Assembly (NCBI GenBank): GCA_905160935.1
Contig: CAJHZI010000449.1
Coordinates: 1,845,001 to 1,909,000 of the forward strand
Length of the DNA: 64,000 nt
From: Enchytraeus crypticus
Lineage: Eukaryota; Annelida; Clitellata; Enchytraeida; Enchytraeidae
Direction of reading: 5' to 3'
A program made the translations under genes and the position numbers. Below, piece by piece: positions 7,081-63,233 of the stretch. Every line of letters begins with the position of its first letter. The stretch's first letter is position 1. The notes below the pieces were generated by a model. That model was not told the DNA's origin and made no database searches. It saw only the letters and a program-made list of their open reading frames with translations.

Positions 7081-8772
7081 TGTATATATGGCTGGAGCCA
7101 GTGGCCAAGTCGGTAAGACACTCGACCGCTGATCAGTATGTGCGGGGTTCAAATCCTGGGCTCGCCCGTCACTGACAGTACTTTCGAGTGAGGAAACTGA
7201 CGTTAACCTTAGCTTTAGCTTTTATATATGTGCGCGTGTGTGTGCGTGCTTGCACGTGTGTGTGTGTGACTGTGAAATGTTGCATATGTGCACATGTGAG
7301 TACTTAGTGCATGGAAGGTACTATAAATACTAGTATTTTAGAAGTGTATTTTAAAATGCCATGTGTTTGAAGCATTTCGCTCTTCATGAGGGTTTCAATA
7401 ACTAAACCTGAAATCTTGCATTGCTTGGTTGATCTAATCAAAGAATGGAATCTCAGAATTTATAAGGGCTCAGGCAACATAGACAGTTGCGTGGCAGATT
7501 AAACATGTTTTTAAAAGTGATAGATATCATCCTGGTTATCATCATCATCATCATCAAGTGTAGTCTAAGAGAATAAAGTATTGGACATTTAAAGAATAGG
7601 TAGCATGGGCTATAGTCGAGTAATAAATATGTGATATTGAAGAGCTAGATGTCATCATGGACTGTTTGACTGTGTTTAGAACTTGATGTCATCATGGACT
7701 GTTTGACTTTGTTTAGAGCTTGATGTCATCATGGACTGTTTGACTTTGTTTAGAGCTTGATGTCATCATGGACTGTTTGTGTTTAGAGGTTGACTTGGAT
7801 CCTCTGAGAACATTCTGTCCCACTCGTGGTTGTGACGCGGTCTGTCATCTGTCTCAGCAGTCAACCACCGTTGTTTCTCTCTCAGCTCCCTCATCAGCCT
7901 CGGGGTCGAGGCGTAAAACCTCCACAGGTCGTCAGTCAGCGAGAGAGTCTAGCCTCTCTAGAACGTCTGTGGTCTATCAGTCCCTCTTCCTACCACAGCC
8001 CGTGCACTGCACCAAGGTCTGTCTGTCTGTCTGATTTTCTGTCTGTCTGTTTGAATGTCTGTCTGTCTGAATGTTTGTATGTTTGAATGTCTGTATCTCC
8101 GTCTCCTCATCACTGTACGTGCATTTTTGTGTATGTGTGTCTGCTTGTATGTATATATGTGTGCATATGTGTATGTGTATATGTATATATGTGTGTATGT
8201 ATGTTTTCATGTGTGTGTGTGTATGTTTGTATGAGTGTATGCACAGCTGTATGTGTGTATATATGTGTGTGTATGTATATGTGCATGTATGTGTTAATAT
8301 TTGTGTGTATATAAGTGTATGTGTGTATGTATGTGTGTATGAATGTGTGTATGTATGTGTATGTATGTGTGTATGTATGGGTGTATGTATGTGTAGTATA
8401 GTGCAGTGTTCTGCTCTCTATGTAAGTACACGTGGCATGACAACAAGACGTGTATGTATGTGTGTATATATGTGTATGTATGTGTGTATGTATGTGTGCA
8501 TGTATGTGTAGTGTGGTGCAGTGTTCTGCTCTCTATGTAAGTACACGTGGCATGACAACAAGACGTGTATGTATGTGTGTATATATGTGTATGTATATGT
8601 GTATGTATGTGTAGTGTGGTGCAGTGTTCTGCTCTCTATGTAAGTACACGTGGCATGACAACAAGACGTGTGATGAAAATTTAACAAGTCGACTGGAATC
8701 TGATGGGTGAGTTATTACTCTGATTAACTTCTAGATATTCTCCATAGTCTACTCTTGCCATCTCTCTCTCTC

Positions 8773-8829
<57 letters not shown>

Positions 8830-10235
8830 GACATATAACGACAGATTCGTATCATAAAGCCTAATTGACTTATAGTGACTCGCAGGGAACTGAACCATTG
8901 ATAAACACTTAGCTGAGACTGTGGACTCATTAAGATAGAGGAAGACCTAGACAATGGATGATTTGTAAGAATCTAAGAAGATCAGTAAGTTCTAAAGGCG
9001 CTGTAGGGTTAGACTTTAGTGTAACAGATGCTATACTAGCTTTGACACCAAGTGTTGTATACATCTGTATAAAGTGCCTGCTAGCCCCACGTGTAATGTG
9101 TGTTGTTGTTAAGCCCCACGTGTAGTATACCATTCAGTAGAACAAAAGGATACCATTCAGTAGTGCAGAAGACTAGAATTAAGCGATGTCCCACGTGTAA
9201 TGTTGTTGTTGTTGTGTAGGATACCATTCAGTAGCACAGAAGACTCTAGAATTAAGCGATGTCCCACGTGTAATGTTGTTGTTGTTGTTGTTGTGTAGGA
9301 TACCATTCAGTAGTGCAGAAGACTAGAATTAAGCGATGTCCCACGTGTAATGTTGTTGTTGTTGTGTAGGATACCATTCAGTAGCACAGAAGACTCTAGA
9401 ATTAAGCGATGTCCCACGTGTAATGTGCCGATAGAGAGGAACGATGGTTGTGCTCAGATGATGTGCAGACAATGTAAACACGTCTTCTGCTGGCACTGCC
9501 TTGCCTCACTGGATGTAAGTGTGTGTGTGTGCATGTGTGTTTGTGTGTGTAGACGTCAGATGACACTAAGATCATGTCATCTTTACATTGACTACACTGA
9601 GACAACTCAGATTAAGTCGATCTTGACCGCAATGAATGTAAATAGTTCAGAGATTGATATAGGCGAGGAAGTTTGCTAAGAAGTAAATTTAGAAACTTAT
9701 TTTACCCATATACATTTCCTTGTGACAGTGAGAGTTACAGACGTGTAGGATGGACTGTTGTTACATCTGTTAGTATACTGTTAGTTCTTTAGTATGTAAC
9801 TGTTTTAAAATATGGAGATACTTTTTCTTGATTTACTCTATTGAACACTATTAAACATCTTCCATGCTCTTCTAAACTGTTGAATGAGCTGAAGAGCATA
9901 CGATGTGATTGTTTTGGAAAAAGTTAAATCATTTTGTTGATTTTGAGTTAACTTAAAATGTGAGTTAATTTAAATTTATATAAGTAGGAATTAATCTTTG
10001 TTTTGGTTGCTAATGCAAAATAATTTGTTACTTCCCATCGCTGATTGTTTGCTGGTTTGATTAACCGATTGATTGAATGATTGATTGATTGATAAGGATG
10101 ACTTTCTGCTGCGTCACTATGATAAGGGTCAGTGTAAGAATAGACTGGGTCATTCTAGAGCTTCTGTCATCTGGCATAGGACCCAGGTCTCTGTCTATCT
10201 CTCTCTCTCTCTCTGTGTATCTCGCTTTTTCTGTC

Positions 10236-10272
<37 letters not shown>

Positions 10273-10396
10273 TGTCTATCTCTCTGTCTCTCTCTCTCTC
10301 TCTCTGTCCGTCTCTCTCTTTCCCTCTCTCTCTCTCTCTGTCCGTCTCTCTCTTTCTCTCTCTCTCTCTTTTCTATCTCTCTCTCTCTTTTCTATC

Positions 10397-10439: not shown

Positions 10440-10739
10440 TCATTGATTGATTAATTGATGCTCTGTTGACTATGATTTAATTCATGATTTAGACGCACAA
10501 TTACTAGTGTTTGGTGATTGATTGATACTCTATGATTGCTCTGTAGTGTTGCTAGTTAATGTTGTTGTTGTTGTGTTTTACAGGTGGTGGGGATATTTGC
10601 AGGGTTTGGAGTGTTGCTGTTAGTAGCCTCACCCTTTCTCTTATTAGCCGCTCCCTGTATACTGTGCTGTAAGTGCAGGTCATGTCATATCAGTGATGAC
10701 GATGATGATAATATGATACCACCATCTTCTATCACTTAG
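2583..10739 (+). CDS. RNF144A/B-like: RNF144-like RBR E3 ubiquitin ligase with C-terminal membrane anchor (8 coding exons)
   Basis: Coding exons: 2583-3296, 3819-3923, 4914-4974, 7787-8016, 8615-8706, 9370-9514, 10097-10186, 10584-10739 (stop TAG). All have GT/AG ends and phases agree, giving about 530 aa. RING1 starts with CKLCLEEY at residue ~213 and continues into exon 2 (CVKEYLRV). The IBR spans exons 4-5 ([16 protein letters not shown]). RING2 in exon 6 contains [13 protein letters not shown] and the probable catalytic Cys in DGCAQMMC. Exon 7 has the family signature [14 protein letters not shown]. Exon 8 carries a hydrophobic segment ([18 protein letters not shown]) followed by a Cys-rich and acidic tail. 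RBR ligases take ubiquitin from an E2 onto the RING2 cysteine; RNF144 members are anchored in endomembranes. Unusual: a ~210-residue Ser/Gly-rich N-terminal extension absent from the ~290-residue vertebrate proteins, with a poly-Gly run at ~190-206. A or B paralogue cannot be decided. Confidence 0.93.
3151..3195 (+). repeat. coding (GGT)n run, poly-glycine
   Basis: In-frame GGT triplets in exon 1 of the RNF144-like gene encode an uninterrupted glycine tract just before RING1. The reading frame is otherwise intact, so it is translated. Confidence 0.9.
3430..3660. mobile_element. dispersed repeat (family C), internally inverted copy
   Basis: The left half (3450-3530) matches 22535-22615 in the same direction ('gtgtggttggaccactg', 'gcaaacaatctgc'). 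The right half (3535-3660) matches the reverse complement of 22680-22830 ('ccttatccactccttaatgt', 'ttccattgcctt'). It lies in intron 1 of the RNF144-like gene. Confidence 0.55.
3768..3814 (+). repeat. (TTGA)n directly before the exon 2 acceptor
   Basis: About ten TTGA/TTGC units run straight into the acceptor 'attacag' of RNF144-like exon 2, in the place of a polypyrimidine tract. Confidence 0.9.
4605..4905 (+). repeat. ~32-bp minisatellite before RNF144-like exon 3
   Basis: About nine copies of a unit with core 'aacctaacctatg' plus 'gtataacattaacata'. It fills the end of intron 2, immediately upstream of the acceptor at 4913. Confidence 0.9.
5265..6999 (+). mobile_element. near-complete Tc1-family DNA transposon
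   Basis: Perfect 28-bp terminal inverted repeats (5265-5292 and 6972-6999; outer end CAGTCATGGCCAAAAG) flank 1735 bp. TA dinucleotides border both sides (5263-5264, 7000-7001), the expected target-site duplication. It contains a transposase gene (5841-6852) with one frameshift. It lies in intron 3 of the RNF144-like gene, in the gene's orientation, within a TA-rich tract. Confidence 0.95.
5841..6852 (+). pseudogene. Tc1-like transposase, one frameshift near the C-terminus
   Basis: Starts [20 protein letters not shown]. An N-terminal paired-like helix-turn-helix DNA-binding region (residues ~10-110) is followed by the DDE catalytic core: LFSDESTF (first D), FQHDGAPCH (second D) and SSSDLNPIE (catalytic E region). 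After NPIE the frame shifts: the frame ending at 6716 reads KLDLHETEG, while the continuation in another frame (through 6852) reads NWICMKQKV to [13 protein letters not shown], the usual Tc1 C-terminus. Total length about 335 codons, normal for the family. One small indel separates it from an intact gene, implying a fairly young insertion. Confidence 0.9.
7001..7086. repeat. (TA)n microsatellite
   Basis: About 40 TA units adjoining the right end of the Tc1 element. The element probably inserted into this tract, since Tc1 targets TA. Confidence 0.95.
7088..7230 (+). mobile_element. tRNA-derived SINE (family A)
   Basis: Begins with a tRNA-like head having an A-box-like 'tggccaagtcgg' and a B box 'ggttcaaatcc', followed by a conserved tail ('gaggaaactgacgttaacc', 'ttagctttagc'). 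Partial copies are at 28436-28520 and 41165-41300. It lacks a foldable 3' acceptor stem, so it is not a functional tRNA gene. Confidence 0.75.
7640..7786 (+). repeat. tandem repeat of the exon 4 acceptor region
   Basis: Four units of ~40 bp with core 'gatgtcatcatggactgttt', each ending in 'gtttagagcttga' or similar. The last unit provides the real acceptor (gtttag, 7781-7786) of RNF144-like exon 4; the earlier ones carry the same 'tttaga' acceptor-like end. Confidence 0.85.
8017..8396 (+). repeat. (GTCT)n / (GTAT)n tract starting at the exon 4 donor
   Basis: The donor reads gtctgtctgtctg and grows into hundreds of bases of GT-rich repeats. Open frames through this tract are low-complexity artefacts. 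Confidence 0.9.
8397..8614 (+). repeat. two upstream partial copies of RNF144-like exon 5
   Basis: Copies at 8397-8453 and 8512-8568 repeat the acceptor ('gtgtag') and the first ~57 nt of exon 5, encoding [17 protein letters not shown], each followed by TG-rich sequence. The real exon at 8615 is the third and last copy. Confidence 0.93.
8761..8825 (+). repeat. (TC)n microsatellite
   Basis: Near-pure TC repeat in intron 5 of the RNF144-like gene, about 55 bp after the exon donor. Confidence 0.95.
9080..9369 (+). repeat. upstream partial copies of RNF144-like exon 6 with (GTT)n
   Basis: Copies at 9149-9203, 9220-9275 and 9299-9352 repeat the exon start (gataccattcagtag to ccacgtgtaatg), each after a 'tgtgtag' acceptor and followed by (GTT)n. 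Degenerate pieces occur at 9080-9140. Copies 1 and 3 share an internal 2-nt deletion that breaks the frame; copy 2 matches the real exon at 9370. Confidence 0.93.
10187..10436 (+). repeat. (TC)n tract starting at the exon 7 donor
   Basis: The donor gtctctgtc runs into ~240 bp of TC-rich repeat. The two overlapping open frames here are repeat artefacts. Confidence 0.95.
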
Positions 10740-10882
10740 ATACTCTCATGATGATGACGATGATGATGATGATGATTATGATACCACAATCTTCTATCAC
10801 TTAGATACTCTCATGATGATGATGATGATGATGATGATAATATGATACCACCATCTTCTATCACTTAGATACTCTTCTATCA

Positions 10883-10923
<41 letters not shown>

Positions 10924-11112
10924 ACCACCATCTTCTATCACTTAGATACTCTCATGATGATGATGATAATATGATACCACAATCTTCTATCACTTAAATT
11001 CCCATGATAAAGATTCCCTTATCATGCTCTCCTATCAACGAGGATGATGATGACGATGATGATGATGATGATGATGATGATATGTTACCACCGTCGTCTA
11101 TGACTTAGATAC
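10740..11112 (+). repeat. tandem copies of the RNF144-like 3' coding end
   Basis: About five further copies of 'accaccatcttctatcactt' + 'agatactc' separated by (GATGAT)n follow the true stop at 10737-10739. Each copy contains the last codons and the TAG. Confidence 0.9.
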
Positions 11113-25440: not shown

Positions 25441-25629
25441 AGATCTACACTACACACGGCAGTGAGTTGGCTAGGGTGACAGTGGTGGGCACTGATTGCT
25501 CTGTTGTATTGATTGACTGATTGATTGATTGATTGATTGATAGATGGATTGATAGATTGATTGATAAATGGATTGATAGATGGATTGATAGATGGATTGA
25601 TAGATTGATTGATAAAGGATTGATAGATG

Positions 25630-25748: not shown

Positions 25749-27945
25749 ACATGGATTGATAGATTGATTGATAGATGGATTGATAGATTGATTGATAGAT
25801 GGATTGTTAGATGGATTGATAGATTGATTGATTGATTGATAGATGGATTGATAGATGGACTGATAGATGAACTTATCAATGGATTAATAGATGGATTGAT
25901 AGATGGATTGGTGTATTATTAGAGCGAGTAACTTGTAGCTGGATTAGCTTTTTACAGTCTTTTGATTGATTTACTGATTTATTGATTGACTGATCGATTG
26001 ATTGATTTTCGACAGCTAATGAGAAGATCTGCGTGAGATGTGGTAAGCGGTTTGTTCTGCTGCCTAACGGAACGTTTGTGAAGGAAGAGCCATGTGTGTA
26101 TCACTGGGGCAAAGCCTGGAAGAAAAGAGGTTAGATTAATCACTGCTCTAGATAACTGCAATCAATCAATCAACGCTGTGTTGTGAAATAAAAGTAAAGT
26201 AAACACGCAATATAGTGAAATGATCAACTATGTTGATATCTATCACTTTTTCATACCACATGTTTAAACCTTTAGGCAATTTAGACCATTTTTCGTGTAA
26301 CCAGTCCAGTGAATGTCCTTGATTTTACTCTCAGATCAGCGCGGATGGGATTCGAACCCACGAGGGTTCAATTCACCTCAGGATTTGTCATTTAGAACTT
26401 CATGACGTTATCTCTACTCTATTTAGATATTCTACAAGCTGAGTGTATGACTTATCTGTACGTAGTGTAACAGTGAGGCTACAGAGAAACATAGAGAACT
26501 CTTTCTAACTGAACTTAAGTGTTGATTCAATTAGTTTTGATTGATTTATTTATCTGCTATTTTAGTTAGACTTTTCTAAAGTGTATTATAGTACTGAATT
26601 ATTAACTAAATTGTAGATTTGTGCTTAGATAATATTACCTGGAGTATTGGTTAAGAGACTTGGTTTGTGGTTGAACAGTCGCAGGTTCTCTCACCACTCA
26701 GTACACGTGTTGTCAAGTAGAGTCCAGTGCTGTGGGGTGTCAAGTGGCCAAGGTTCTCTCTCTCTATCTCTCCTACGCTCTCTGTCTGTGTCTGTTTCTT
26801 TCTCTCTCTCTGTCTCTCTCTCTCTCTCTCTCACTTTCTGTGTCTCTCTCTCTTTCGTTGCAACTTTTTATTTCGTTACACAACAACACTACAAGTGTTA
26901 CCCTGTGATATTGGTAATATAACTGATACCACGACCTCAACTACAGTAATTGAATAGTTCACGACGTTACCTGGCGCTCTGCACACTGAGCTATTGAGAC
27001 ATGCAGTAGCTCACTGGGATCAGGGTGCATACTATGAAGTCCTCTACGATATTGATAAAAGTTAAATAAATAGAAATAGAAATTCTACTGCTGAATGTCA
27101 AAAATTATTTCCAATGAAAATTAAATTTAAAATTTGTAAAATTTCTGCAACAAACCCTGACCCTGACCCAACAAAATCATCAATTTCCAAGTGTACGTAC
27201 ACATTATGCGAGCGGTTTATTTATTTACTTAGCTGTATTTTCTTTTTGTCTCTGTATTCTGTATTCACTCTTCCATTGATTCAGTTTACAGCTCCTGCAA
27301 CTAGCAATTCGCTTAAACTAATTGTTTACGAGCAGAGTTCATGTAGCCATACAACTACTTGTGTATGTGTGTATATATACGTATATATACACGTGTATGT
27401 GTGTGTGTAGACACACGTGCACGAGAAGAACAAATACACAGATCTAGAGGGATACGTAAGCACACGCCCTACCTCCAACAACACAACGATTCACTCTGTA
27501 TACGCTCTCGACTGTGAAATGGTAACTCTCTGTTTCTCTAGCAGATAGCTGCCTTCTTACTTTATTGGTTGATTTGTTTGATTGATTTATTGATGGATTG
27601 ATTGATTGATTGACTGATTGATCGATTGATTGATTGATTGATTGACTGACTGATTAATTGATTAGATCTACACGACACACGGCAGTGAGTTGGCTAGGGT
27701 GACGGTGGTGGGGGCTGATTGCTCTGTTGTATTGATTGATTGACTGATTGATTGATTGATTAACTGATTGATTGATTAGATCTACACGACACACGGCAGT
27801 GAGTTGGCTAGGGTGACGATGGTGGGAGCTAATTTCTCTGTTGTATTGATTGATTGATTGATTGACTGATTGATTGATTAGATGTACACGACACACGGCA
27901 GTGAGTTGGCTAGGGTGACGGTGGTGGAGGCTGATTTCTCTGTTG

Positions 27946-27987
<42 letters not shown>

Positions 27988-44100: not shown

Positions 44101-47100
44101 TACAATACAGTAGAAATTGATGTTCTTTTCAGTCAACAATGATGATATGTACAAATATACATGTATGTTAAATGATATGTGCTGCCTTGTACTAAACGAT
44201 ATTATTATTACGATGTACAAAGATTAGTAAGTATGTTTAATAAAAAAGTGCAATGACTGTGCTTGGTGTGCCAGTGGTGAAATAGAAATAAATATATTAT
44301 AAATCTCAACATATTCTGCTCAGTGAGACAGTGACGAGATGAGTGTAGAAGTAAATTATACGCTGTTATAAATTGATGAGAAAGCAACAACAAGAGCAGT
44401 AGCAACAACAACATGAGCAGTAGCAACAACAACAACAGCAGGACATACTTAGGCTGTGCCGAGGACAGCAACAACAAGAGCAGTAGCAACAACAACAACA
44501 GCAGGACATACTTAGGCTGTGCGGTAGAGCTGATGTCGATGGAGAAGAACCTGACGAAGCCATCGGCGCAAGCGCTCGCTAGAGGATTGCCATCAGGTGA
44601 GAAAACCACTTCTGTGATAGGCTGCAGTGATACATACGCACATTACTAGAGACACTGCTGTCAATTTATCACAGCTGCTTTATGCTTTAAGCAGTGAATT
44701 GAACATTCTGCAGTGAATTGAACATTCAGCAGTGAATAGAACATTCTGCAGTGAATTGAACATTCAGTAGTGAATTGAACATTCAGCAGTGAATTGAACA
44801 TTCAGCAATGAATAACACATTCAGCAGTGAATTGCACGTTCAGCAGTGAATTTAACATTCAGAAGTCAATTGAACATTCAGCAGTCAATTGAACATTCAG
44901 CATAGATAGAATTTTAACATTACACACAACAGACAATGATTTCATGTCAGGGACGTCTCAGGCAAAACTGAGATTGATATAGAATATAGCAGACCCCTGA
45001 GTGATGGTTGCTGATAGAGATTCTGCCGTACTGTATGTCTGCTGGTATCTCTGAATATGAGAATCTCTTCCTTAACAACTCTACATTCCACACGTCTATC
45101 TGCTCAATCAATCAATCAATCAATCAATCAGTCAATCAATCAATCAATCAACTCACGATCTCTGAATAAGAGAATCTCTTCCTTAACAACTCCACATTGC
45201 ACACGTCTATCTGCTCAATCAATCAATCAATCAGTCAGTCAATCAATCAATCAGTCAATCAATCAACTCATGATCTCTGAATACGAGAATCTCAGCCTTA
45301 TTAGTTGAAAGTTCCAAACGTTGATCTGTTTAATCAATCAAACAACAAATTGATCAATCAGTCAAGAAGTGACCTTAAAGTAGCTGAGACTCCTTTGTGG
45401 TAACCCCCTTCATATTGTTCACTGGTTTAGTTGCCTGCTAGCTATGTATGTAATTAGTTCATAATTATGCTGAAAAATATATATAAAAGCAATGTGAATG
45501 TAATAAAAATTAATCTATCTATTTATGTAAAAATGTCTCTCTCGACAACATAAGATGCATTGCAACCAAAATCTAGTTCAGAAAAACAAAGCAACAATGA
45601 AGAGATGAAAGAATAAAATGACTAAATTCTCTGAACGTAGTTCATCTAAGATAGTTCAATAAGGCTAATTAAACTATAACTGATTGAACAAGACAATAAC
45701 AACATGAGATAGTGATATAACGTATCTCGTAAATGCCCCTAATTATTGACAACAATTAATCTATTTAAATTACTAGGACACTGGCAACAACATCAGAACA
45801 AATAACAAGACAAATCTAACAGAACCAGTCTAAATGGTTGAGCACTGTGGCCCTAAACAGCACAAGTAACTCTGTAAGCACGAATTATTTCATGAATGGA
45901 GAATGATGATTGACAATGAATTAATGTATGAACGAAAGAATGACTGAACGAATGAATGGCTGAATGAATGAATGAAAGAAAAAATTTAAAAATTAGTGAA
46001 TGTCTAAATTAATGAATGACTAAATGAACAGATGACTGAACAGAAGAAAGAGAGACAACGACCATATCATGTAGCGCGACAGCTATCAGCACAGACACAT
46101 CATCCTCATCCTCATCCTCTAGTGACGTGGCCTCACTGGTCGTTGAGCCCTGTGCCTGTGGACCAGGAGGCACGTATGGACACCAACAGATCCTCTTGAA
46201 CAGGGCTGAATGGTGGGAGATGAGCCCCCCACGGATGGGGAGGGGTGGAGGTATCCTAACTATCAGGCGTGAGCTGACGACAAGCTGTTAATTCTGTAAC
46301 GGCTCTCATTATAATATTAGAGGATTAACGTCCGTTTCCTCATCATAGCGTAGAGGCAGAGTATTCTGCAGCTCTGAGATAATAACAGCTTAAATACTCC
46401 GCTTACTGTCTCAGATAATAACAGCTTAAATACTCTGCTTACTGTCTCAGATAATAACAGCTTAAATACTCTGCTTACTGTCTCAGATAATAACAGCTTA
46501 AATACTCTGCTTACTGTCTGAGATAAAAACAGCTTAAATACTCTGATTACTGTCTGAGATAATAACAAATTAAATACTCTGATTACTGTCTGAGATAATG
46601 ACAGCTTAAATACTCTGATTACTGTCTGATATAATAACAGCTTAAATACTCTGATTACTGTCTGAGATAATAACAGCTTAAATACTCTGATTACTGAGAT
46701 AATAACAGCTTAAATACTCTGATTACTGTCTGATATAATAACAGCTTAAATACTCTGATTACTGAGATAATAGCAGCTTAAATACTTTGATTACTGTCTC
46801 AGATAATAACAGCTTAAATACTCTGATTACTGTCTGATATAATAACAGCTTAAATACTCTGATTACTGTCTGATATAATAACAGCTTAAATACTCTGATT
46901 ACTGTCTGAGATAATAACAGCTTAAATACTCTGATTACTGAGATAATAACAGCTTAAATACTCTGATTACTGTCTGATATAATAACAGCTTAATACTCTG
47001 ATTACTGAGATAATAGCAGCTTAAATACTTTGATTACTGTCTGATATAATAACAGCTTAAATACTCTGATTACTGAGATAATAACAGCTTAAATACTCTG

Positions 47101-50100
47101 CTTACTGTCTATCTGTAGAACTAGAAGATGATAAAGAGATATACCAGTAGATGAGAGAGAGAAAGGGGAATGGTAAATCAATTAGTCAATCCTGTATATC
47201 AGACAGTCTGACAGCAATCAGTATTTACACTGATAGGAGCAGCAATAAGTACCTAATCTCACTCATTTAAATCAAAATATCTTATTCTTTCTCTCCCTAG
47301 TGTTCTTCCATGCGCCAGGTGCAAGCAGCTCATTCCTAATCACACTCTACTTTCATGCCCATAAAGAGCACTCCACTGACTCCATTGATCAACGAGTTAC
47401 GCCCTCCACAAAGGTCTCATCCACTTTCTTATTCTTCCTGTGGCTAAAGAAAATAAGAAATCCGAGGCAGTTTCCATTTTTCTTCAGTATAAGCTCAGTA
47501 GCCTCTTACCATATACGCAGTTTATACTTGGTCAAATGTTCAAGGATCGGACACAACCAGTAATAGTTCGTAGAGTAAAGGCCTAACCATATCAATCAAA
47601 CATTGTATGATCTCCCTATCTTATATATTAATCATCAATCAATTGATAAATCAATCATCTGATCAACAAGTCAATCAAACAAACAATCAATTGATAATCA
47701 ATCAATTGATCTAAGCACAAAGGATACTTAAGTTTGTCTTCAAGCCCAGGGTTCAGTGAGTACACATCAAGTGCACAGAGGTCATTGAGTACAGCTAGCT
47801 GGGCCTCCGTGGTACGAGCAAAACCCAGATCAACCACATCAGAACCAAAACCCATCAGCTTAACCCGCTGAACAGTTCTCTGGTTAACCACGTAAACCAC
47901 ATGAGATGATTCCTTAGCTCCTGACTGAGATCCGCTATATTCAGCCTGAGCTCCTGTACTGGAAGCATGTGATCTCTTACCTGTCGACAATACAATAACG
48001 TTTACAATGTCGGCGACTAGCAAAAATATCTAAAGTAGCCGCTAAGTCAACCAGTCTCAAAACAATAAATATCAGTACAATCTGAGACTATACACCGGGT
48101 AGTATAGCCACGCAAATATGATAACTGGAAAATCTACAATCGATTGATCAGCTGACTCAGAATAAATGATTGAAGATTTATCAGAGCTGGTCTCCCCTAA
48201 CAACATCACAACTTTAAATCATGTCAATCATTTAGTCCTTTAAGTCATTTAAATCATTTAAATCACATAAATCATTTAATGATTTAAATCATTTAAATCA
48301 CATAAATCATTTAGTCGTTTAAATCATTTTAATTAAATCACACAGAAGAGATGATTTTCTCAAATGACCACAAGATCTAGAGCTACTAGAGCTCTGTCCA
48401 ACATGTCTATGAACTGTAGATGAGGTGAAAGAGATACTCATCTTAAATGACATAACTATTCATTTAAATGCTATAAATGAATGAAATGATGTAACTGAGT
48501 TGAAATGTACAGAGGTGTAGCCAACCTCTCACTACATAGGCTATGTAAGCAGACATGTGATGTAATGCAATCAAGTTGCCTGCAAGCTTGTTGACGTCAT
48601 AACCATGTTGTCTTACCATTCTCTTGCTCTCAACCTACACACATACGCATACATACAAACACATGCATACACACACATATACACACACACACGCATACAT
48701 ACACACACCCTGTTGTTGTAACATTCTTTAGCTCTCAAGTCTCAACCTACATACACACACATACACACATACATACACACATATATAAATACATACATAC
48801 ACATACCCTATTGTTGTAACATTCTCATGTTCTCAACCCACACATACACATAACACACACATACACAGTTGCAGTCTCATTGACAACAAATTATCCACAT
48901 GTTGTGTACATTCTTTACTTCTATTCAGCCACAGGTAGTATCAGCTGATTAGAAGTAAACAAGTATCCACAAACCAGTGGTAAACTCCAGCATTTTAAAG
49001 TAACTAGAAATCAGTGTCATGGACACTGATTTAAAGTAACCTTGTTAACAACACACTAGAGAGGATGATAGAGAGCACTAGTAACTAGTAACCTTGTTAA
49101 AAACACTCTAGAGAGGATGATAGAGAGCACTAGTAACTAGTAACCTTGTTAATAACACTCTAGAGAGGATGATAGAGAGCACTAGTAACTAGTAACCTTG
49201 TTAACAACACACTAGAGAGGATGATAGAGAGCACTAGTAACTAGTAACCTTGTTAATAACACACTAGAGAGGATGATAGAGAGCACTAGTAACTAGTAAC
49301 CTTGTTAACAACACACTAGAGAGGATGATAGAGAGAACTGATAACTAGTAACCTTGTTAACAACACACTAGAGAGGATGATAGAGAGCACCAGTAACTAG
49401 TAACCTTGTTAACAACACACTAGAGAGTATAATAGAGAGCACTAGTAACTAGTAACCTTGTTAACAACACTCTAGAGAGGATGATAGAGAGCACCAGTAA
49501 CTAGTAACCTTGTTAACAACACACTAGAGAGTATAATAGAGAGCACTAGTAACTAGTAACCTTGTTAACAACACTCTAGAGAGGATGATAGAGAGAACTG
49601 ATAACTAGTAACCTTGTTAATAACACTCTAGAGAGGATAATAGAGAGAACTGATAACCTTGCTAACAACACTCCATAGAACATGATAGAGAGCACTAGTA
49701 ACTAGTAACCTTGCTGCTGGTGGGTGTGTCAGTGCTAGGTGAACCACTCAGTCTACTAGACAAGATCTCTACATTAGAGCTGTGCACAGTGTGAGTTGTT
49801 CGCTGTTCTGTACCATCCAGTGCACTGTACAAATCAATCAATCAATCAATCACTAGAGCTGTGCACAGTGTGAGTTGTACGCTGTTCTGTACCATCCAGT
49901 GCACTGTACAAATCAATCAATCAATCAATCACTAGAGCTGTGTACAGTGTGAGTTATACGCTGTTCTGTACCATCCAGTGCAGTGTACACATCAATCAAT
50001 CAATCAATCACTAGGGCTGTGCACAGTGTGAGTTGTACACTGTTCTATACCATCCAGTGCACTGTACAAATCAATCAATCAATCAATCACTAGAGCTGTG

Positions 50101-51945
50101 CATAGTGTGAGTTGTACGCTGTTCTGTACCATTCTGAGTCACTAGTCAAGTGAAATATTAGAATTAATCCTCTCTAGCTCTCTCGCTCTGTCTATCTCTC
50201 TCACTCTCTCTCTGTCTCTCTCACTGTACTGCCTGACATCCAGTCTACGGCATACAACTCCTTCATACTCTAATTTTCTTTTCATCTTTAAATACAAATA
50301 ATTTATCAAATCGTCCAACTCTCTTTGTCTTGGTCTTCCTCTAAATTATTCCATCAAATACTAAAGCTGTCAATCAATCAGTTGAAGCTAGAGAACAACA
50401 AGTAAGGCTCACATGGTTTGTCGCTCTGAGGACAGATTTATGACAGAGCCGCCGCTGTCTGTAAACACAGAGTTAACACTGGGAGTCTCACTCGCTACCC
50501 TGTCCCTAGCCCCAATGCTGCCATCAATCAATCAATCAATTAATCAATCAGTCAATCAATCTATCTTAAATCCTTACATTCCAAAAAGTACAATATAAAA
50601 CAGTGCAATACAATACAATAGAACAATACAATATTAGCAAATACATTTAAAAATTCAAAAAAGGCGAGTGCTTTCTTATACCAATACTCTACCAGCCTTG
50701 ACATCCAGTCACAGCTTCAACCACACAACAGAAAATTGATGACACTATTATCAGTAAATCTACTGTACAATTTATAGCCTGATTAATACAGACACATGTA
50801 AAAGAATTGTCACACTTATGGCCGTATTTACTTGGGAGATAATCATCCGTTTAAACATCAACAGTTGCGTAAACTACTTATTAGTCACAATTTTATATTC
50901 TACAAGCTTGAATCGACGTGTAAAGTAATGCATAGCTGCACGCCTGCTTTGGCGCGTTTAAACAGTTGATTAGTTACAAAACTAATTAAGAAATAATTTT
51001 CTAGCCTTGTTTAAGAAGTAAGCTGATTGGTCGATCAGCCCGAAGGACAGCACTGTGATTGGCTAAGAGACATAATTTTGGCGGATGACCATGTAGTTAA
51101 TTACACGCAACATTTTTTAGTGAATACCTAAAATTCTGAACAATAGTTTAGCCAACAACAGAGGCGTAAATGATCATTTGATTAAACAAAAGTTAGTAAA
51201 TGCGGGTATTAGTGTAGTTATCTACTATAATCAGGTGTTTACCTGATTCCCTCCAGTGTCTTCTGTAAGGAGACTGGCAGACTGACTGTAGAGGAGTCTA
51301 CAACAAACACAGGTTAACAGACGTCACAGACTGACACAGGTTAACTGACAATACTGACACAGTCAGGTTAACTGACAACACTGACACAGTCAGGTTAACT
51401 GACGTCGCTGACACAGGCTAACAGGCGTCACTGACACAAAATTAACTGCCAACACTGAATAAACACAGTATAAAGATAATGCAAAGATAGCTTGCACAGA
51501 TTGCAGTCTGGGTACAATAAATTTCCTATGGAGTCTTAACATTAAATCACTGGCACTGATAAACATTCAGAAAGACATTAAATCCTATTTCGTGAAGAGT
51601 TTTAAATTTATATCAGTAGTATTTATACATGATTCGTAAAGGCTCAGGCTCGACAATTAACAGTTGAATCTAAATAAGTTTAGGCAAGTAGAAGGTTAAT
51701 TCGAAAGCATCGCAATATTTAGTAATCAAAGTTTATAGCGGCACCGTGCTATCTTCAATTTCTCGGTCTTTTATAGATCTTACATTAATCAACCAGATTA
51801 AGACTAATAGTGTTTCATGCCTATAACAGTCAAAATTGGCAGAAAACCTACCACTGGAGCGAGAAACAGGGCTATTCTCCTGCCGACCAATACTCAGAAT
51901 ACTCTTGAGCACTGCAGAGGCGTCGCTATTGAAGAAATTACTCAT
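31664..51945 (-). CDS. EDC4-like: EDC4/Ge-1-like enhancer of mRNA decapping (24 coding exons)
   Basis: Exons in transcript order: 51852-51945, 51243-51297, 50413-50517, 49710-49824, 48526-48634, 47728-47980, 46063-46255, 44995-45102, 44512-44621, 43434-43517, 42252-42456, 41661-41820, 41359-41419, 40615-40700, 39416-39512, 38368-38947, 36596-36761, 36024-36182, 35225-35340, 34259-34409, 33597-33810, 32746-32995, 32235-32398, 31664-31865. Phases agree across all, giving 1278 aa (human ~1400). Residues ~125-550 are the WD40 propeller: LAGNLIAL, ICWCPYVPP, FSPDGNPLASACADGFVRF, FWKYAMTGAADNTELKLW, YLVLSDVKRK. A Ser/Thr-rich linker (~580-805) follows, then the helical C-terminus: ADLGLVMYVCETSDP, LSLIQQLSADL, YLEEAVMKLD. 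EDC4 scaffolds DCP1/DCP2 in P-bodies. The gene is convergent with the REXO1-like gene and divergent from the ITPK-like gene. Confidence 0.95.
31866..32012 (-). repeat. acceptor-edge repeat before EDC4-like exon 24
   Basis: Four units of 'ctacctaatcaaccaatcaa' + 'acagcctgattagtt' (plus strand). On the minus strand each supplies a 'tgattaggtag' acceptor followed by the first exon bases. Confidence 0.85.
32213..32234 (-). repeat. (TC)n at the EDC4-like exon 23 donor
   Basis: The minus-strand donor reads gtctctctctctctctc: the microsatellite begins with the splice site itself. Confidence 0.95.
32576..32745 (-). repeat. donor-edge copies of EDC4-like exon 22
   Basis: Further ~62-bp copies of 'gacgtcagcagcagatcaga' + 'ccagattgaaagcaga' (plus strand). 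Each carries the last ~16 coding nt and the gtctga donor. Confidence 0.9.
32996..33075 (-). repeat. acceptor-edge copies of EDC4-like exon 22
   Basis: 'gtgtcagctagcctacac' and 'gtgccagctagcctaca' upstream in the transcript repeat the exon start (LADT codons) plus tag acceptor. Confidence 0.85.
34410..34985. repeat. ~25-bp AT-rich minisatellite (acacaactctacaatatacaat)
   Basis: About 20 units of 'acacaactctacaatataca' + 'ataca', abutting the acceptor of EDC4-like exon 20 (34409). The 191-aa plus-strand frame is an artefact. Confidence 0.95.
35565..35635 (+). mobile_element. retroposon 3' tail (family D)
   Basis: Shares 'ggtctatccgtatcctgacc' with 14870 and ends in (GATGAT)n. Confidence 0.45.
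35855..36020. repeat. ~27-bp repeat after EDC4-like exon 18
   Basis: About seven units 'ttactatgacgactgtattg', adjacent to the donor at 36023 and containing the donor's intronic bases. Confidence 0.85.
36285..36595 (-). repeat. donor-edge copies of EDC4-like exon 17
   Basis: About six ~52-bp units containing 'gtacttaccactagtagagc'. On the minus strand each gives 'tagtggtaagtac', an intact consensus donor with the last exon bases. Confidence 0.9.
36770..37690. repeat. ~39-bp minisatellite before EDC4-like exon 17
   Basis: About 24 units with 'aacataagcaattctctacc' and 'gttacacaactatctcag'. A homogenised block (37040-37270) has identical 39-bp units. Confidence 0.95.
37728..38050. mobile_element. 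dispersed repeat (family E), longer copy
   Basis: First ~150 bp match 23605-23757; the rest continues to 'gtgcgctaaatcccccc'. Intron 16 of the EDC4-like gene. Unclassified transposable-element fragment. Confidence 0.5.
39196..39415 (-). repeat. donor-edge copies of EDC4-like exon 15
   Basis: About ten units whose minus strand reads 'acacacaggtattcacac'; the true donor is acacag|gtactc at 39415. Confidence 0.88.
39560..40605. repeat. ~41-bp minisatellite, about 26 units
   Basis: Units 'catcaacgtcattaaatcaa' + 'ttcattcagatgactcagtca', fairly homogeneous, with five truncated units. Intron 14 of the EDC4-like gene. Confidence 0.95.
40865..41125 (-). repeat. (TC)n in the sense of the EDC4-like gene
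   Basis: (GA)n on the plus strand; long Ser/Leu frames on the minus strand are artefacts. Confidence 0.95.
41165..41305 (+). mobile_element. diverged SINE family A copy
   Basis: Retains 'aggctcgcc', 'gacttcgaaacaagaaactg' and 'acgttaa' in the order seen at 7088-7230; the head is badly decayed. EDC4-like intron 13. Confidence 0.5.
41846..42065 (-). mobile_element. tRNA-derived SINE (family B)
   Basis: Shares 'atgatcaactatgttgatat' and 'gtaaccagtccagtgaatgt' with the 26.2-kb copy. In the sense orientation of the EDC4-like gene, intron 11. Confidence 0.75.
43170..43433 (-). repeat. donor-edge copies of EDC4-like exon 10
   Basis: Six units of ~50 bp ('gagatagacatactctgagg' then 'caacattttagagaaacaga'). 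On the minus strand each repeats CCTCAGA|gtatgtct, the exon end and donor, followed by TC repeat. Confidence 0.92.
43520..44112. repeat. (GTACA/ATACA)n pentanucleotide array
   Basis: About 590 bp of 'acagtacaatacagtacagt', starting at the acceptor of EDC4-like exon 10. All long minus-strand frames rich in Tyr/Cys/Leu/Val here are artefacts. Confidence 0.95.
44385..44511 (-). repeat. donor-edge copy of EDC4-like exon 9 with (CAA)n
   Basis: 44443-44461 repeats 'ggacatacttaggctgtgc', the exon end and donor (AGCCTAA|gtatgtcc on the minus strand), separated from the real one by AACAAC repeat. Confidence 0.88.
44690..44905. repeat. ~20-bp minisatellite
   Basis: About eleven units of 'cagtgaattgaacattcag' in EDC4-like intron 8. 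Confidence 0.9.
45103..45335 (-). repeat. two upstream partial copies of EDC4-like exon 8 with (TGAT)n
   Basis: Copies 45154-45213 and 45272-45330 repeat the first ~58 nt. On the minus strand they read IDVCNVELLRKRFSYSE and INVWNFQLIRLRFSYSE, against IDVWNVELLRKRFSYSE in the real exon (44995-45102). The farther copy is the more diverged. Confidence 0.95.
45336..46062. other. EDC4-like intron 7, no further element recognised
   Basis: AT-rich. 45900-46040 has degenerate 'gaatgaatgaatgaa' tetranucleotides. Nothing else recognised. Confidence 0.4.
46370..47112. repeat. ~35-bp minisatellite, about 21 units
   Basis: Units 'gataataacagcttaaatac' + 'tctgattactgtctga', with a shorter variant lacking 'gtctg'. 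Two variants alternate, indicating higher-order duplication. EDC4-like intron 6. Confidence 0.95.
47285..47520 (-). mobile_element. dispersed repeat (family C), diverged copy
   Basis: On the minus strand follows the order of 22720-22900 (ggaagaataag; cctttgtgga; 'tcgttgatcaa'; 'agtgctctttatgggc'). Confidence 0.5.
48640..48875. repeat. (CATACACA)n repeats with duplicated acceptor region
   Basis: Three blocks of CA/TA repeat separated by 'ctctcaa/ctcaacc' motifs resembling the start of EDC4-like exon 5 plus acceptor ('ctctcaacctacac' at 48628; also 48733-48752 and 48831-48841). Confidence 0.8.
49035..49709 (-). repeat. ~52-bp minisatellite containing the EDC4-like exon 4 donor, about 13 units
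   Basis: Units 'aacaacacactagagaggat' + 'gatagagagcactagtaact' + 'agtaaccttgtt'. On the minus strand each carries 'aaggttactag', the exon end AAG|gttact. Very homogeneous. Confidence 0.95.
49825..50135 (-). repeat. four upstream partial copies of EDC4-like exon 4 with (TGAT)n
   Basis: Copies at about 49852-49904, 49932-49984, 50012-50064 and 50090-50133. Each has acceptor tgtacag, then codons for ALDGTEQRTTHTVHSS, then TGAT repeat. The real exon is the most 3' copy in the transcript. Confidence 0.95.
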
Positions 51946-58279: not shown

Positions 58280-61200
58280 TTTGTGATATGCATTGTGCCT
58301 GTTATATTCTTATATGTATAAATGTCACACATGACTGGTGATGGGAATCCTATTCATTCTATTGTATTAGTTGGCGGAAAATAAACAATAAATGAGAGGC
58401 TTGAAGTGACCTTGCACAATTATCACACAACACCTGCCCTTATAGTTGTGATATGGTGCTTGCAATGCTCTCAGCTATAGATTTATAATAAAAAGAAGCC
58501 TTTCAGCATCTGTTGAATCTGTATTGCTTTGATATTTTATAAGTATTCACTGTACAGTGTTGTTGTTTTGTGTGCATGTATGTATGTGTACATGTGTGTG
58601 TGTGTGTGTTTACACGTATGTATTTATGTGTAGGTATTTAATCTATGCAATGAAAGATGAGTCATTGCAGTTGATTGGTGGTAGCTTTTGTTAGGTTTAT
58701 GGTAGTTACCTTACAAGTCTGTGTATTAACTGATTGTTTATACCATTACCTAGTAGACTCGGCTTAGTTGCTAGAACTCAACATTGTAGATCATTAACTG
58801 GATATGCCTGCCTTGCTTCTTTTGTTCTGGGCTTGAAAAGGTTGAATGTATAGTACATAGAACTTGAAGAACTGAAAGTGTTTGTAGGAGGTGGAGAAAG
58901 AAGGTAGCAAAGAATGATAGCAATGGATTGCAGTTAGGTTGATGTATTTGGTATTTATGAGATGATGTCTAGATTATCTGGGTCGTGCACACAGTGATGT
59001 GGAAGATCTGTATGAAATCTCTGCAGCTGTTGTCCTGGGTTCAATTTCCTGTCCATCTCTCTCACATGACTCACACGTTGAGAATGATAAACTTGTTTTA
59101 AATGATTTCCTCGTGATATCTTGTATATGAACAAGTTTATTTACAAACATTTATTACATGTACACATACAAAAGTGTATTGTATTTGTACATGTACTGTA
59201 CATGTATATAGTGTACACCTATATGTACTCCTATATGTACACTGTGTATTGCACAGAACGCACTGGACCTCACGGCTCCTGCCAGTGACGCTTTGCTGAA
59301 GAACAGAAAGAACGCCTGGATACAACTTGCTGGTCATGCAGGTAAACAGTGTGTATTATCTCTGTATTGTATGATACAACTTGCTGGTCATGCAGGTAAA
59401 CTATTACTTGCTATGTTTAAACTATTAGGATTTAACATCTGAATCCTCATTCGTGGATGATGTCGGGGACGTCTCAAGTGAAACATACAAGCCGTTCTAC
59501 ACCACTAAAACGTTGACTGATTGATTGATTGATTGATCGATTGACTGATTGATTGGACAGGCAGTTTTGCGCCAGCAGGACCTCAGACAATATGGAAGCG
59601 CCTGACGGACAACAGAGAGGCTCGGTGCTATGAGCAGTTGATGATGGACTCGGTGAGATCTGTTGTACCGAGGTTCTATCGGCAGGTCCTCTACAACAAT
59701 GACTGTATCCTGATCTACTAGATGTTCATCAATCAATCAATCAATCAGTCAGTCAATCAATCTATCTATCAAGTTCTATCGGCAGGTCCTCTACAACAAT
59801 GACTGTATCCTGCCATAGATATCCCTCAATCAATCAAAGAGTCAGTCAATCAATCTATCAGTCAATCAATCAATCAATCAAGTTCTACCGGCAAGTTCTC
59901 TATAACAATGACTGTATCCTGATCTACATGTCCCTCAATCAATCAATCAATCTATCTATTTGTCTATCTATCAGTCAATCAATCAATCAATCAATCTATC
60001 TATTTGTCTATCTATCAGTCAATCAATCAATCAATCTATCTATTTGTCTACCTATCAGTCAATCAATCAATCACTCAATCTATCTATTTGTCTATCTATC
60101 AGTCAATCAATCAATCTATCTATTTGTCTATTTATCAGTCAATCAATCAATCAATCTATCTATCTATTTGTCTATCTATCAGTCAATCTATCTATCAATT
60201 TCAACAGACAATTCCCTACAACAACGACGAGATTCTTTTTCTACAATTACTTAACCATTACTAATGTTCAGCTTTCATAGAAATAGAAGATCTGCTGCAG
60301 CACTTCTCTGATCCCAGTATCATGGACATCAAGATGGGCTCCAGGTGAGTTATCAATCAATCAATCAATCAGGTATCATAGAAGTTTTTGGTTGTACTAA
60401 TTGAGTACCTAAGGGCTGAATGAAGATGCTAATACTAAGTATAAGTTTGACATCTGCTTCCTTACGTCAAGCTTAATGCCAGAGACGGTTTGGCAGAGTT
60501 TTGACCCTTGACGTCTTACTTATCAAGCAGGCATGCTAAGAACTGGACCACCGGCCTGTAAGAAGATTAATTCACTACTGGTGAGCTTGGGATGTGAAAC
60601 AGGAATCACTGAAATCTACAGATATGGGTCAAGTGAGGACTATAACGATACAACAAGTATTACAGATCTTAGCGAGTGCTAGGTGTTGTCATGAGTTGTT
60701 GTTGTTGATCCTGTAGAACATTCTTGGAGTCGGAGGCAAGCAATGATAAGTTGAGAGCTGATCTCTACAACAAGATGGTTGATATAGATCCTGATGAACC
60801 CACAGCTGAGGAACACGAGAGAAGAGCGGTCACCAAGCTACGCTACATGCAGGTGTGTGTGTGTGTGTATATGTGTGCTTGTGTATGTGTGTGTGTATGT
60901 GTGCTTGTAGAGGAACACGAGAGACAAGCGGTCACCAAGCTACGCTACATGCAGGTGTGTGTGTGCTTGTGTATGTGTGCTTGTGTATGTGTGTGTGTTG
61001 TGTGCTTGTAGAGAAGTACGAGAGATGATCTGTCACCAAGCTATGCTACTTTGTTTTTTAATTTCATCTTTGGACTGGTTGCCGAGGTTGAATTTGCATT
61101 GTTTAGAAATTTTTTTAGATTTGCACTTCTTAATACTCTGATTTGTATCTCTGTGTGTATATGTGTTTGTGTGTGTGTATGTTTGTTGGTACCTCTACGT

Positions 61201-63233
61201 GTTTGATTGTCTTGTTGCTTGTTTGTGTTACAGTTTAGAGAGAGAGGCAGTTCGTCGTCCACTCTCTCGTTCAGAATCGACGCTGTGAGGGTTTGTGGCT
61301 CTGTTGTAACTTACACGTCTTTAACTTAGTTGTTGATTCAAACAACAACTCTTCGTTTGCTTCTCTTATATTTCATATCATAGTTTACGTAATTATTTGC
61401 CTGAGTTAGTTAAATAACACCAAGCTAAATGCAGCTCATCTGGTTCTGGGAAACCTCACATGTCCAGATTTAGTATTTCGGTGTGGTTACATGTCTTTAT
61501 ATACGCTTGTGTGTGCGTTTGTGTACATGTGTGTGTATGTGTGCAGTTACGAGAGAAAGCATGCATTGGCTTTTCTGCCTGAGTTAAATCAATAATGTAA
61601 ATAAATTAAAATATAGAATCAAAGTTTTCATGTCTAGTTATCTACTAATAGACACTATCAATAGACCTCAACGTAACTATCTGTTCACAGTACACACTCA
61701 TGATTGTGATGTGTAGAGATCTGGTGAACCCAGCAGTGAACTGAGAAAGGTTAAAACCAGAGATGAGGTTTTTATAAATTTTTATTTTCTTGTGTTAAAT
61801 GACTGAGTCACTTGTACTAGTTAATAAATTATGTGTTTTGTGAAAGGAGTTTCCAGCAATGAACAGTTTATAAACAAATTAATTTAATTGTTCTAAAAAT
61901 AAGTTTGATTAAAATTAGACTATAAAGTAATTTATCTGTCTTTTTGATTAATTATACTGTTAGTTTGATTCAAATATAATCTTCTCCTCTACTATTAAAA
62001 CTTAGAAAAATTAATAAATCAAAACTGTCATACTATCACCTAGAAAATTTTGAAACATCTTGCTTAATAACAAATTCATTTAACTTTCTCTTCCTCTCAT
62101 TTTCTCTCAATCGTACTTTCTCTTATTTGGTTTCTTTACATTATTTAAATGGAAGCTTGAATTAGAAGGTGTAACAAATGTTGACACAGTTTATTATCTG
62201 TCGATGCTTTACTTACGTAGGTCAAGCAGACTTTGACGCAGTTTATTGTCTAACAGTGTTGTACATATGTAGGTCATGCAGACTTTGACACAGTTTATTG
62301 CCTAGCAGTGTTGTACTTATGTAGGTCATGCAGAAGTTGACCCAGTCTATTGTCAACAGTGTTGTACATATGTAGGTCATGCAGACGTTGACACAGTTTA
62401 TTGGGTCACATCACATTGTTTATCAGAAGTTCATTCATCGGCTGCAGAAGATCCGCAGACAGTTTGAACTGTCGACCTACTTCAGGCACGCAGAGGTGAG
62501 CAGTCTAGGGAAATGTTGTCAATGTTGTCACGTGATGTCATGTGTAACGATGTGTCGTGTGATATGTTTGTGATGTGTGTAGGACATAATCTGTATCTTG
62601 AACTTCTTGGTAACATGTTTTATAGTTTATGAAACTAGATTGTATTCACAAAGAATATTAGCAGACGACAAGTAACTTGTGGATGAAGTTGACAATACCA
62701 GCATTTGTGTTCACCAGTGTAATGAACACTCTCTCCTGATGTTTTTTACTGGAGATAATTAGCAGCACTTTTGATATTTTTTATTGTAGATAGTTAGCAG
62801 CTCTCTTTCGATGTTTTTTTTACTGGAGATAATTAGCAGCTCTTATCTTTTTGATGTTTTTACTATAGATAGTTGGTAGCTCTCTCCTGATGTTTTTAAT
62901 GGAGGTATTTGGCAGCTCTCTTTTGATGTTTTTACTGTAGATAGTTGGCAGCTCTTTTTTTATGTTTTTTTACCGTAGATAGTTGGCAGCTCTCTTTTGA
63001 TGTTTTGACTGTAGATAGTTGGCAGCTCTCTCCTGATGCTCTATGACCGAGACGATAAAGCTAATGTCTGGATGATTGACTTCGCCAAGACCTGCCAACT
63101 CAAGGATCGTAAAGCGCTGACTCATCGCGACGTCTGGGTAATGGGAAATTCCGAGGATGGGTTTCTCACTGGCCTGGATAATCTCATCCAGATAATGATA
63201 GAATTGGGTCAACGCTATAATTCCACTCCTTGA
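56279..63233 (+). CDS. ITPK-like: inositol-trisphosphate 3-kinase-like (9 coding exons)
   Basis: Coding exons: 56279-56350, 59257-59341, 59561-59704, 60272-60344, 60717-60852, 61234-61290, 61717-61767, 62376-62495, 63015-63233 (stop TGA). Phases agree, 318 aa. Family landmarks: [26 protein letters not shown] (the PxxxDxKxG inositol-phosphate kinase motif); [48 protein letters not shown] (metal/ATP-binding IDF motif); [14 protein letters not shown]. These match the ITPKA/B/C catalytic domain, which phosphorylates Ins(1,4,5)P3 to Ins(1,3,4,5)P4, better than IPMK or IP6K. The protein is nearly a bare catalytic domain: only ~45 residues precede it, lacking the long actin-binding/regulatory N-terminus of vertebrate forms. 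The first exon rests on a good ATG, phase and donor (GCT|gtgagt) only, and another 5' exon is possible. Confidence 0.92.
56780..57006 (+). mobile_element. tRNA-derived SINE (family B), best copy
   Basis: A-box-like 'tagcgtaggggtaacg' and B box 'gggttcgaatccc' ~60 bp apart, then the shared body. In ITPK-like intron 1, sense orientation. Defines the family orientation used for the other three copies. Confidence 0.8.
57366..57418. repeat. (TA)n microsatellite, left flank of the mariner element
   Basis: TA units ending at the element boundary. Confidence 0.95.
57419..58206 (+). mobile_element. mariner/Tc1 internal-deletion derivative
   Basis: Imperfect ~30-bp inverted ends (outer CACTGTGAGTCA / TGACTCACAGTG, inner 'catgtgcgca') with flanking TA on both sides, 788 bp. 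Inside, the plus strand keeps a broken N-terminal piece (starting near 57620) and a C-terminal piece ending in [18 protein letters not shown] to [13 protein letters not shown] codons near 57780-57920. The catalytic middle is deleted. Non-autonomous. Confidence 0.9.
57620..57920 (+). pseudogene. mariner/Tc1-like transposase remnant
   Basis: Start and end of a transposase joined across a large internal deletion, with stops and frameshifts in the first part. The C-terminal stretch [16 protein letters not shown] is recognisable. No DDE residues remain. Confidence 0.75.
58207..58274. repeat. (TA)n microsatellite, right flank of the mariner element
   Basis: TA units continuing from the right element boundary. 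Confidence 0.95.
58275..59256. other. remainder of ITPK-like intron 1
   Basis: No exon recognised. 59035-59050 contains a B-box-like 'gggttcaatttcc', possibly a decayed SINE. Confidence 0.35.
59342..59402 (+). repeat. donor-edge copy of ITPK-like exon 2
   Basis: 59373-59401 repeats 'gatacaacttgctggtcatg' + 'caggtaaac', the last 25 exon bases plus donor, 60 bp downstream of the original. Confidence 0.93.
59705..60195 (+). repeat. donor-edge copies of ITPK-like exon 3 with (AATC)n
   Basis: 59771-59811 and 59880-59932 repeat the exon end ([10 protein letters not shown] codons) and donor, each followed by AATCAATC/TATC repeats. Long Ser/Ile/Asn/Gln frames are artefacts. Confidence 0.93.
60196..60255 (+). 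pseudogene. diverged relic of ITPK-like exon 3/4 sequence
   Basis: Reads [21 protein letters not shown]. The first half resembles [10 protein letters not shown] of exon 3 and the second half resembles [12 protein letters not shown] of exon 4, with no intron between. Not used in the gene model. Confidence 0.5.
60853..61050 (+). repeat. donor-edge copies of ITPK-like exon 5 with (TG)n
   Basis: 60909-60954 repeats the last ~45 nt ([15 protein letters not shown]) with a 'cttgtag' acceptor-like start and a gtgtgt donor, so it could be spliced as an exon. 61009-61046 is a third, decayed copy. Confidence 0.92.
62165..62375 (+). repeat. acceptor-edge copies of ITPK-like exon 8
   Basis: Four ~62-bp units containing 'tatgtaggtcatgcagac' and 'ttgacacagtttattg' precede the real exon start at 62376. 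Each has an acceptor and ~28 coding nt (VMQTLTQFI). Confidence 0.93.
62745..63014 (+). repeat. acceptor-edge copies of ITPK-like exon 9
   Basis: Seven ~35-bp units such as 'tgtagatagttggcagctct', each with an acceptor and up to 24 coding nt (IVGSSLLM), diverging with distance from the real exon at 63015. Confidence 0.93.

Follow-up and report, generated by a model that had tools for sequence, protein, structure and literature searches.

Background

Tandem repeats that run across an exon-intron boundary have been described in lancelets under the name of mirages, namely in Adh3, in the globin genes BflGb6 and BflGb9, and in the genes for troponin C and PGBD5, and the accessible text of these reports also demonstrates their length instability (PMC3087553, PMC3902484). 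Here we analyze a stretch of 64,000 nucleotides (nt) from the annelid Enchytraeus crypticus (GenBank assembly GCA_905160935.1, contig CAJHZI010000449.1, positions 1,845,001 to 1,909,000; hereafter the window), in which exon ends recur together with their splice sites in the adjoining introns, along with genes from elsewhere in the same genome. In both animals, minisatellite-like tandem repeats span the boundary at either an acceptor or a donor of genes that appear intact, and an idea of intron gain equivalent to the one considered below has been put forward for lancelets. The difference is one of scale: judging by the accessible text, the lancelet mirages were reported gene by gene, whereas in the annelid at least 36 of 200 splice edges in many genes carry such copies, as assessed against a matched null, with a bias towards acceptors. 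The original prediction, made from the window alone, maintained that no named description of this pattern exists; the lancelet literature supplies the name.

Other systems are related more loosely. The potato RdRp gene and the near intron pairs of Drosophila also involve duplication across an intron-exon boundary or with a proto-splice site (PMC4974935, PMC2891723) but, as far as the accessible parts of these sources go, the outcome there is a new intron, as opposed to the growth of existing introns in E. crypticus. Introners are a known source of many introns (PMC9860276, in its accessible part) but consist of one element copied in many genes, whereas the E. crypticus edge probes yielded 0/3542 matches in the flanks of other genes (24-nt edge probes, not whole introns). 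Among clitellate annelids, the earthworm metallothionein genes contain minisatellites in intron 1 and copies of exon 4 that are missing from the transcript; however, the accessible text describes neither the repeats as spanning exon edges nor the exon-4 copies as a minisatellite (PMC12783039). Beyond these intronic minisatellites, searches for annelid or genome-wide descriptions of mirages gave none for annelids among the open-licence papers listed. Mirages are a known oddity that turns out to be frequent also in an animal group remote from lancelets; what is new is how prevalent they are, the comparison with a matched null and the bias towards acceptors.

Exon-edge copies and their excess over background

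The exon models of four animal genes in the window (RNF144-like, REXO1-like, IP3 3-kinase and, on the minus strand, EDC4) provide 108 splice edges, 54 acceptors and 54 donors. Because the window was picked for showing the pattern, a second, independent sample of 46 junctions (chaperonin 19, myosin 24, kinesin 3), that is 92 edges, was built, and the combined set comprises 200 edges (100 acceptors, 100 donors). Copies were catalogued with four 24-nt edge probes, any one of which had to match at 20 or more of 24 positions on the intron side within 700 bp, together with an extended match of at least 18 nt including at least 4 exonic nt; the copy counts are limited to the 700 bp reach. The claim that exon edges recur in the adjoining introns is borne out at 18 of the 108 window edges (9/54 acceptors and 9/54 donors, with 1 to 9 copies each), and the expected extension beyond the window is seen at 18/92 edges of the independent sample, with a maximum of 11 copies; the figure of about 13 copies was not reached in either sample within this reach. 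Both exon boundaries are affected, as in the lancelet mirages (24/100 acceptors and 12/100 donors in the combined set), and the genes appear intact, with open frames across all modelled exons of the RNF144-like (8), REXO1-like (14), IP3 3-kinase (9) and EDC4 (27) genes.

A stricter test employed a single probe with 12 nt on each side of the edge at 83% identity. All 29 matches lie on the intron side and none on the exon side, so that, as originally described, acceptor copies are upstream and donor copies downstream of the exon. Together with the open frames, this one-sidedness agrees with the proposal that duplications with one exonic and one intronic breakpoint are tolerated by virtue of the junction that stays intact. 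For the matched null, one interior position was drawn per intron and side in 5000 draws (such positions were available in 98 of the 100 introns). The strict probe is positive at 29/200 edges, compared to 9.35 expected from interior positions and a maximum of 21 in any draw. The excess is approximately 5-fold for acceptors (20/100), whereas no clear elevation over background is seen for donors (9/100). The asymmetry is most pronounced in the gene sample, where 13/46 acceptors are positive against 1.16 expected, a value reached in 0/5000 draws, whereas the donor count of 3/46 against 2.06 is reached in 1675/5000. In the window, the corresponding values are 7/54 against 2.81 for acceptors (80/5000) and 6/54 against 3.32 for donors (481/5000). 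Outside the window, in the gene sample, an excess over background is clear for acceptors but not for donors. With the required match set at 18, 20, 22, 23 and 24 of 24 positions, the acceptor excess is 5.4, 5.4, 5.2, 4.7 and 2.8-fold, and the donor ratio is 2.5, 2.4, 2.1, 1.7 and 0.4-fold, respectively.

Array coverage was considered as a null for edges, with about one quarter of intron positions having some copy, and was rejected because an exon edge can be part only of an array's terminal unit. By end-unit tests, 13/108 window edges compare with 385/8190 (4.7%) interior-intron positions and 62/1876 (3.3%) exon-interior positions, and 16/92 gene-sample edges (17.4%) compare with 273/9358 (2.9%) interior end-unit tests and an any-copy rate of 8.4%.

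The junctions of the independent sample were called solely from pairs of Pfam matches adjacent to one another in the profile. Of 99 pairs of such matches, 57 lay in the DNA examined and 56 gave a junction, of which 46 were kept and 10 dropped by a filter on frame deviation (3 residues or less), score (at least 4) and margin (at least 1); the splice-site scores of the caller were trained on the exons of the window itself. The single-exon matches in contigs C373, C252, C259 and C400 and a stop-rich kinesin row (C345:762788) were left out. The C373 match (locus L009, 1699388-1700899) covers nearly the whole chaperonin profile in a single open frame, whereas the other chaperonin genes are split into many exons, and the chaperonin-like matches at C259:222108-222410 and C400:247840-248142 show identical scores and spacing, perhaps reflecting a duplicated stretch.

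Anatomy of the arrays and the surrounding repeats

In acceptor arrays, the nearest copy is a median of 74 nt away and includes a median of 28 exonic nt; in donor arrays, the respective values are 63 nt and 18 exonic nt, and the exonic share of the spacing is at most 0.72. These spacings are measured to the nearest catalogued copy, which is not always the repeat unit (for the donor of EDC4 exon 4, the spacing is 149 and the unit 52 nt). Identities among the copies within an array are mostly 0.83-1.00. The decay of distal copies that had been noted by eye is a trend: the nearest copy resembles the exon more closely in 13 arrays and less closely in 5, with 10 ties (p=0.096). Of 71 acceptor copies, 69 and 66 retain the two letters of the AG, and of 37 donor copies, 35 and 36 retain those of the GT; the neighbouring positions are retained about as well.

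Tandem repeats are abundant in this DNA, with rows of Tandem Repeats Finder (TRF) making up 28.8% of the window. In the gene sample, a nearby copy exists for 21-40% of the probes located upstream of acceptors at a distance of 24-168 nt, compared to 4-16% at equal distance from donors. When array-bearing edges are excluded, 13-25% of probes on the acceptor side of introns are still repeated versus 6.5-11% on the donor side. The acceptor half is thus generally rich in repeats, with a further contribution from the edge itself. Inspection by eye showed (ATTG)n, (TG)n or (GTT)n tracts at the ends of several units, and a microsatellite within 100 nt accompanies 16/24 acceptors with an array compared to 30/76 without one (p=0.033).

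Arrays that lie wholly within coding exons have a period divisible by three in all 10 TRF rows (about 6 separate arrays), whereas the remainders 0/1/2 of the period are distributed as 39/35/49 among non-exonic rows (period of at least 10) and as 16/15/5 among edge arrays. In-exon arrays being in frame and the others unrestricted, we infer that duplications occur everywhere and are filtered by selection. A splice site is not required, given that in one of the four window genes the stop-codon edge is copied as well: the end of the RNF144-like coding sequence with its stop (TAG 10737-10739) recurs in the gene's own 3' untranslated region (plus strand; 10690..11100, outer coordinates by eye), at 5 places with at least 20/24 matches to a probe of 20+4 nt and at 3 places with the 12+12 probe.

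Age of the arrays and intron length

Seven myosin intron positions are common to at least two paralogues (equal phase, within one residue). Arrays are present in some paralogue at 6/7 of these, and at 6/6 at least one paralogue is array-free, which implies that the arrays are younger than those myosin introns; two of the six positions depend on weak copies, position 449 wholly and position 378 partly (the C193 copy is weak, the C404 copy firmer). The statement that such duplications keep producing new introns thus finds no support in the myosin introns on which it was tested. Intron growth fits the arrays, and this part of the prediction holds on one side: introns with an acceptor array are longer (median 838 versus 603 nt, p=0.039), whereas a donor array goes with a tendency to shorter introns (516 versus 664, p=0.067). 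When array-free edges were searched for old copies (score of at least 22), 3/73 acceptors scored against 1.4 expected and 2/85 donors against 0.9; each set includes one masked-letter artefact, and one of the acceptors is that of REXO1 exon 14. The lack of a broad excess of decayed copies at these 73 acceptors and 85 donors suggests that arrays turn over quickly.

Explanations of the arrays

We consider it probable that the arrays are mirage minisatellites, that is, tandem duplications kept since one junction stays intact. Under this scheme, a tandem duplication would copy a short stretch spanning an exon edge, in many cases close to a microsatellite in the intron. With the outermost copy still joined to the rest of the exon, the protein would suffer no harm, and the inner copies would turn into intron carrying spare splice sites. 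Thereafter the array would grow, shrink and disappear through ordinary repeat turnover. The one-sidedness of the copies, the acceptor excess, the retained AG and GT, the open frames and the greater age of the introns are observations; that the arrays are born by tandem duplication, are neutral and leave the outermost junction in use is what we infer. Several findings weigh against this scheme. The acceptor excess drops to its lowest value, and the donor ratio below one, among perfect 24/24 copies; the acceptor excess in the gene sample is not predicted by a plain model of uniform duplication; and the microsatellite link, weak at acceptors, is absent at donors (4/12 versus 25/88, p=0.74). Furthermore, two chaperonin paralogues with introns about two residues apart have arrays in both, and one copy of REXO1 exon 12 lies about 2.6 kb off in another intron, not in tandem. 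The likeliest reason for the preponderance of acceptors over donors is that the 3' part of the intron is repeat-rich and that copies adjoining a conserved exon survive longer.

The simplest alternative, that nothing is special at edges and that random arrays of a repeat-rich genome overlap them while purifying selection keeps the intact junction, draws on the repeat content of the window, on donor edges that stay near background in both samples and on the window alone, where edges (12-20%) are not above the any-copy rate of introns (22-26%); yet it appears unlikely in view of the gene sample, where edges exceed both the end-unit and the any-copy rates, and of the acceptor counts, which matched draws never reached in the gene sample and rarely reached in the window. 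A mutational hot spot at acceptor edges, with the 3' intron end (microsatellite tract, transcription, repair) promoting short tandem duplications, is a serious but less favored possibility: the acceptor excess persists at each identity threshold tried, the acceptor-side intron is dense in repeats, microsatellites are commoner by array-bearing acceptors, and the absence of a broad old-copy excess at array-free edges fits fast birth and loss, but the excess is weakest for the perfect, youngest copies and a single genome cannot separate birth rate from survival. If the 3' intron edge were a true hot spot for the birth of short tandem duplications, about one fifth of acceptors would carry spare copies that turn over faster than the introns themselves, a lineage-wide trait independent in lancelets and annelids; we put this forward only tentatively. 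That the arrays are kept for use, for instance as back-up or alternative acceptors, would account for splice dinucleotides retained in nearly all copies, but neighbouring positions are retained about equally, multiples of three are not clearly favored among the periods, and arrays come and go among paralogues, so that a functional role seems improbable. Creation of new introns by tandem duplication, an idea put forward for the globins of lancelets, is more improbable still: the geometry is the one proposed there and close to the potato RdRp case (as presented in the accessible text of those sources), but all six array-bearing common myosin positions, including the two with weak copies, have an array-free paralogue. 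Finally, the published assembly is described in the accessible text as a hybrid of PacBio and Illumina data (PMC8460440), and copy numbers may be off; however, the divergence among copies within arrays and the recurrence of the pattern across many contigs make an assembly artefact the least credible explanation, hardly to be expected. The mirage minisatellite scheme remains our preferred reading.

Genes and edge arrays of the window

Pfam matches above the cut-offs are IBR in the RNF144-like protein, Ge1_WD40 and EDC4_C in EDC4, and IPK in the IP3 3-kinase; RNase_T in the REXO1-like protein is just under the cut-off (23.8 versus 24 bits). The EDC4 model was guided partly by the human protein. 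A plain gene-finder trained on three window genes over-predicted (285 plus-strand exons, with 9/31 true exons exact), and its output gave no more than some guidance in modelling EDC4; an anchored version added doubtful exons and misplaced some edges, and the caller based on pairs of Pfam matches took its place. An open frame (5826-6713) in an RNF144-like intron looks like a Tc1/mariner transposase.

In the RNF144-like gene (plus strand), the acceptor of exon 5 (8615-8706) with 57 exonic nt has 2 copies upstream (8347..8671) and that of exon 6 (9400-9514) with 27 exonic nt has 3 (9173..9426). The acceptor array of exon 4 (7787-8016; array 7641..7790, period 37, about 8 exonic nt) is below the catalogue threshold and was recognized by eye and with TRF; the donor of IP3 3-kinase exon 1 is another such by-eye case. 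In the REXO1-like gene (plus strand), the acceptor of exon 12 (28012-28266) with 69 exonic nt has 3 upstream copies within (ATTG)n (27601..28080), and the distant copy of the exon start mentioned above, identified by eye, is at 25441..25512 in a microsatellite setting in the intron after exon 8. The acceptor of exon 14 (29373-29464) is absent from the catalogue and was recovered by gapped alignment; the interval 28941..29378 holds an array of period 43 with the acceptor, as well as a distal copy that has decayed (33-nt alignment, score 41).

The IP3 3-kinase gene (plus strand) has donor arrays at exon 2 (59257-59341; last 23 nt, 1 copy downstream, 59319..59401), exon 3 (59561-59704; last 32 nt, 2 copies downstream, 59673..59927) and exon 5 (60717-60852; last 45 nt, 1 downstream copy catalogued, 60808..60998), and acceptor arrays at exon 8 (62376-62495; 28 nt, 3 copies upstream, 62210..62403) and exon 9 (63015-63233; up to 24 nt, 6 copies upstream, 62743..63038).

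In EDC4 (minus strand), acceptor arrays are found at exon 4 (49710-49824; 50 nt, 3 copies, 49775..50132), at microexon 5 (48617-48634; 2 copies of the edge, 48628..48844), at exon 9 (44995-45099; 53 nt, 2 copies, 45047..45365) and at exon 25 (32746-32995; 23 nt, 1 copy, 32973..33035). Donor arrays accompany exon 4 (4 exonic nt, 9 copies counted, 49037..49713), exon 10 (44512-44621; 11 nt, 1 copy, 44406..44522), exon 12 (43430-43507; up to 25 nt, 5 copies, 43190..43454), exon 17 (39416-39512; up to 17 nt, 4 copies, TG-rich, 39275..39432), exon 19 (36596-36758; 4-5 exonic nt, 2 catalogued copies and more by eye with period 43, 36306..36599) and exon 25 (15 nt, 2 copies, 32580..32760). EDC4 has three probable, less certain microexons, of 12 nt (33868-33879), 18 nt (48617-48634, the one listed above) and 25 nt (44161-44185), and the 18-nt one is itself repeated.

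Among named proteins, the IP3 3-kinase is most similar to annelid ones (Paralvinella, Ridgeia, Helobdella, Owenia and Capitella), and among the 120 of 7999 COX1 matches listed, the nearest are Mesenchytraeus and Lumbriculus at 93%. Elsewhere in the genome, partial COX1 matches with stops were seen in nuclear contigs (C361, C424, C796, C373 and C166); these are possibly nuclear copies of mitochondrial DNA.

Implications

The nearly universal retention of AG and GT in the copies is a warning for gene predictors. That mirages are common in this annelid, combined with the matched null and the acceptor bias, opens the old question of how introns lengthen and acquire additional splice sites to tests in E. 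crypticus, a soil animal that is kept in the laboratory and whose genome has been published.

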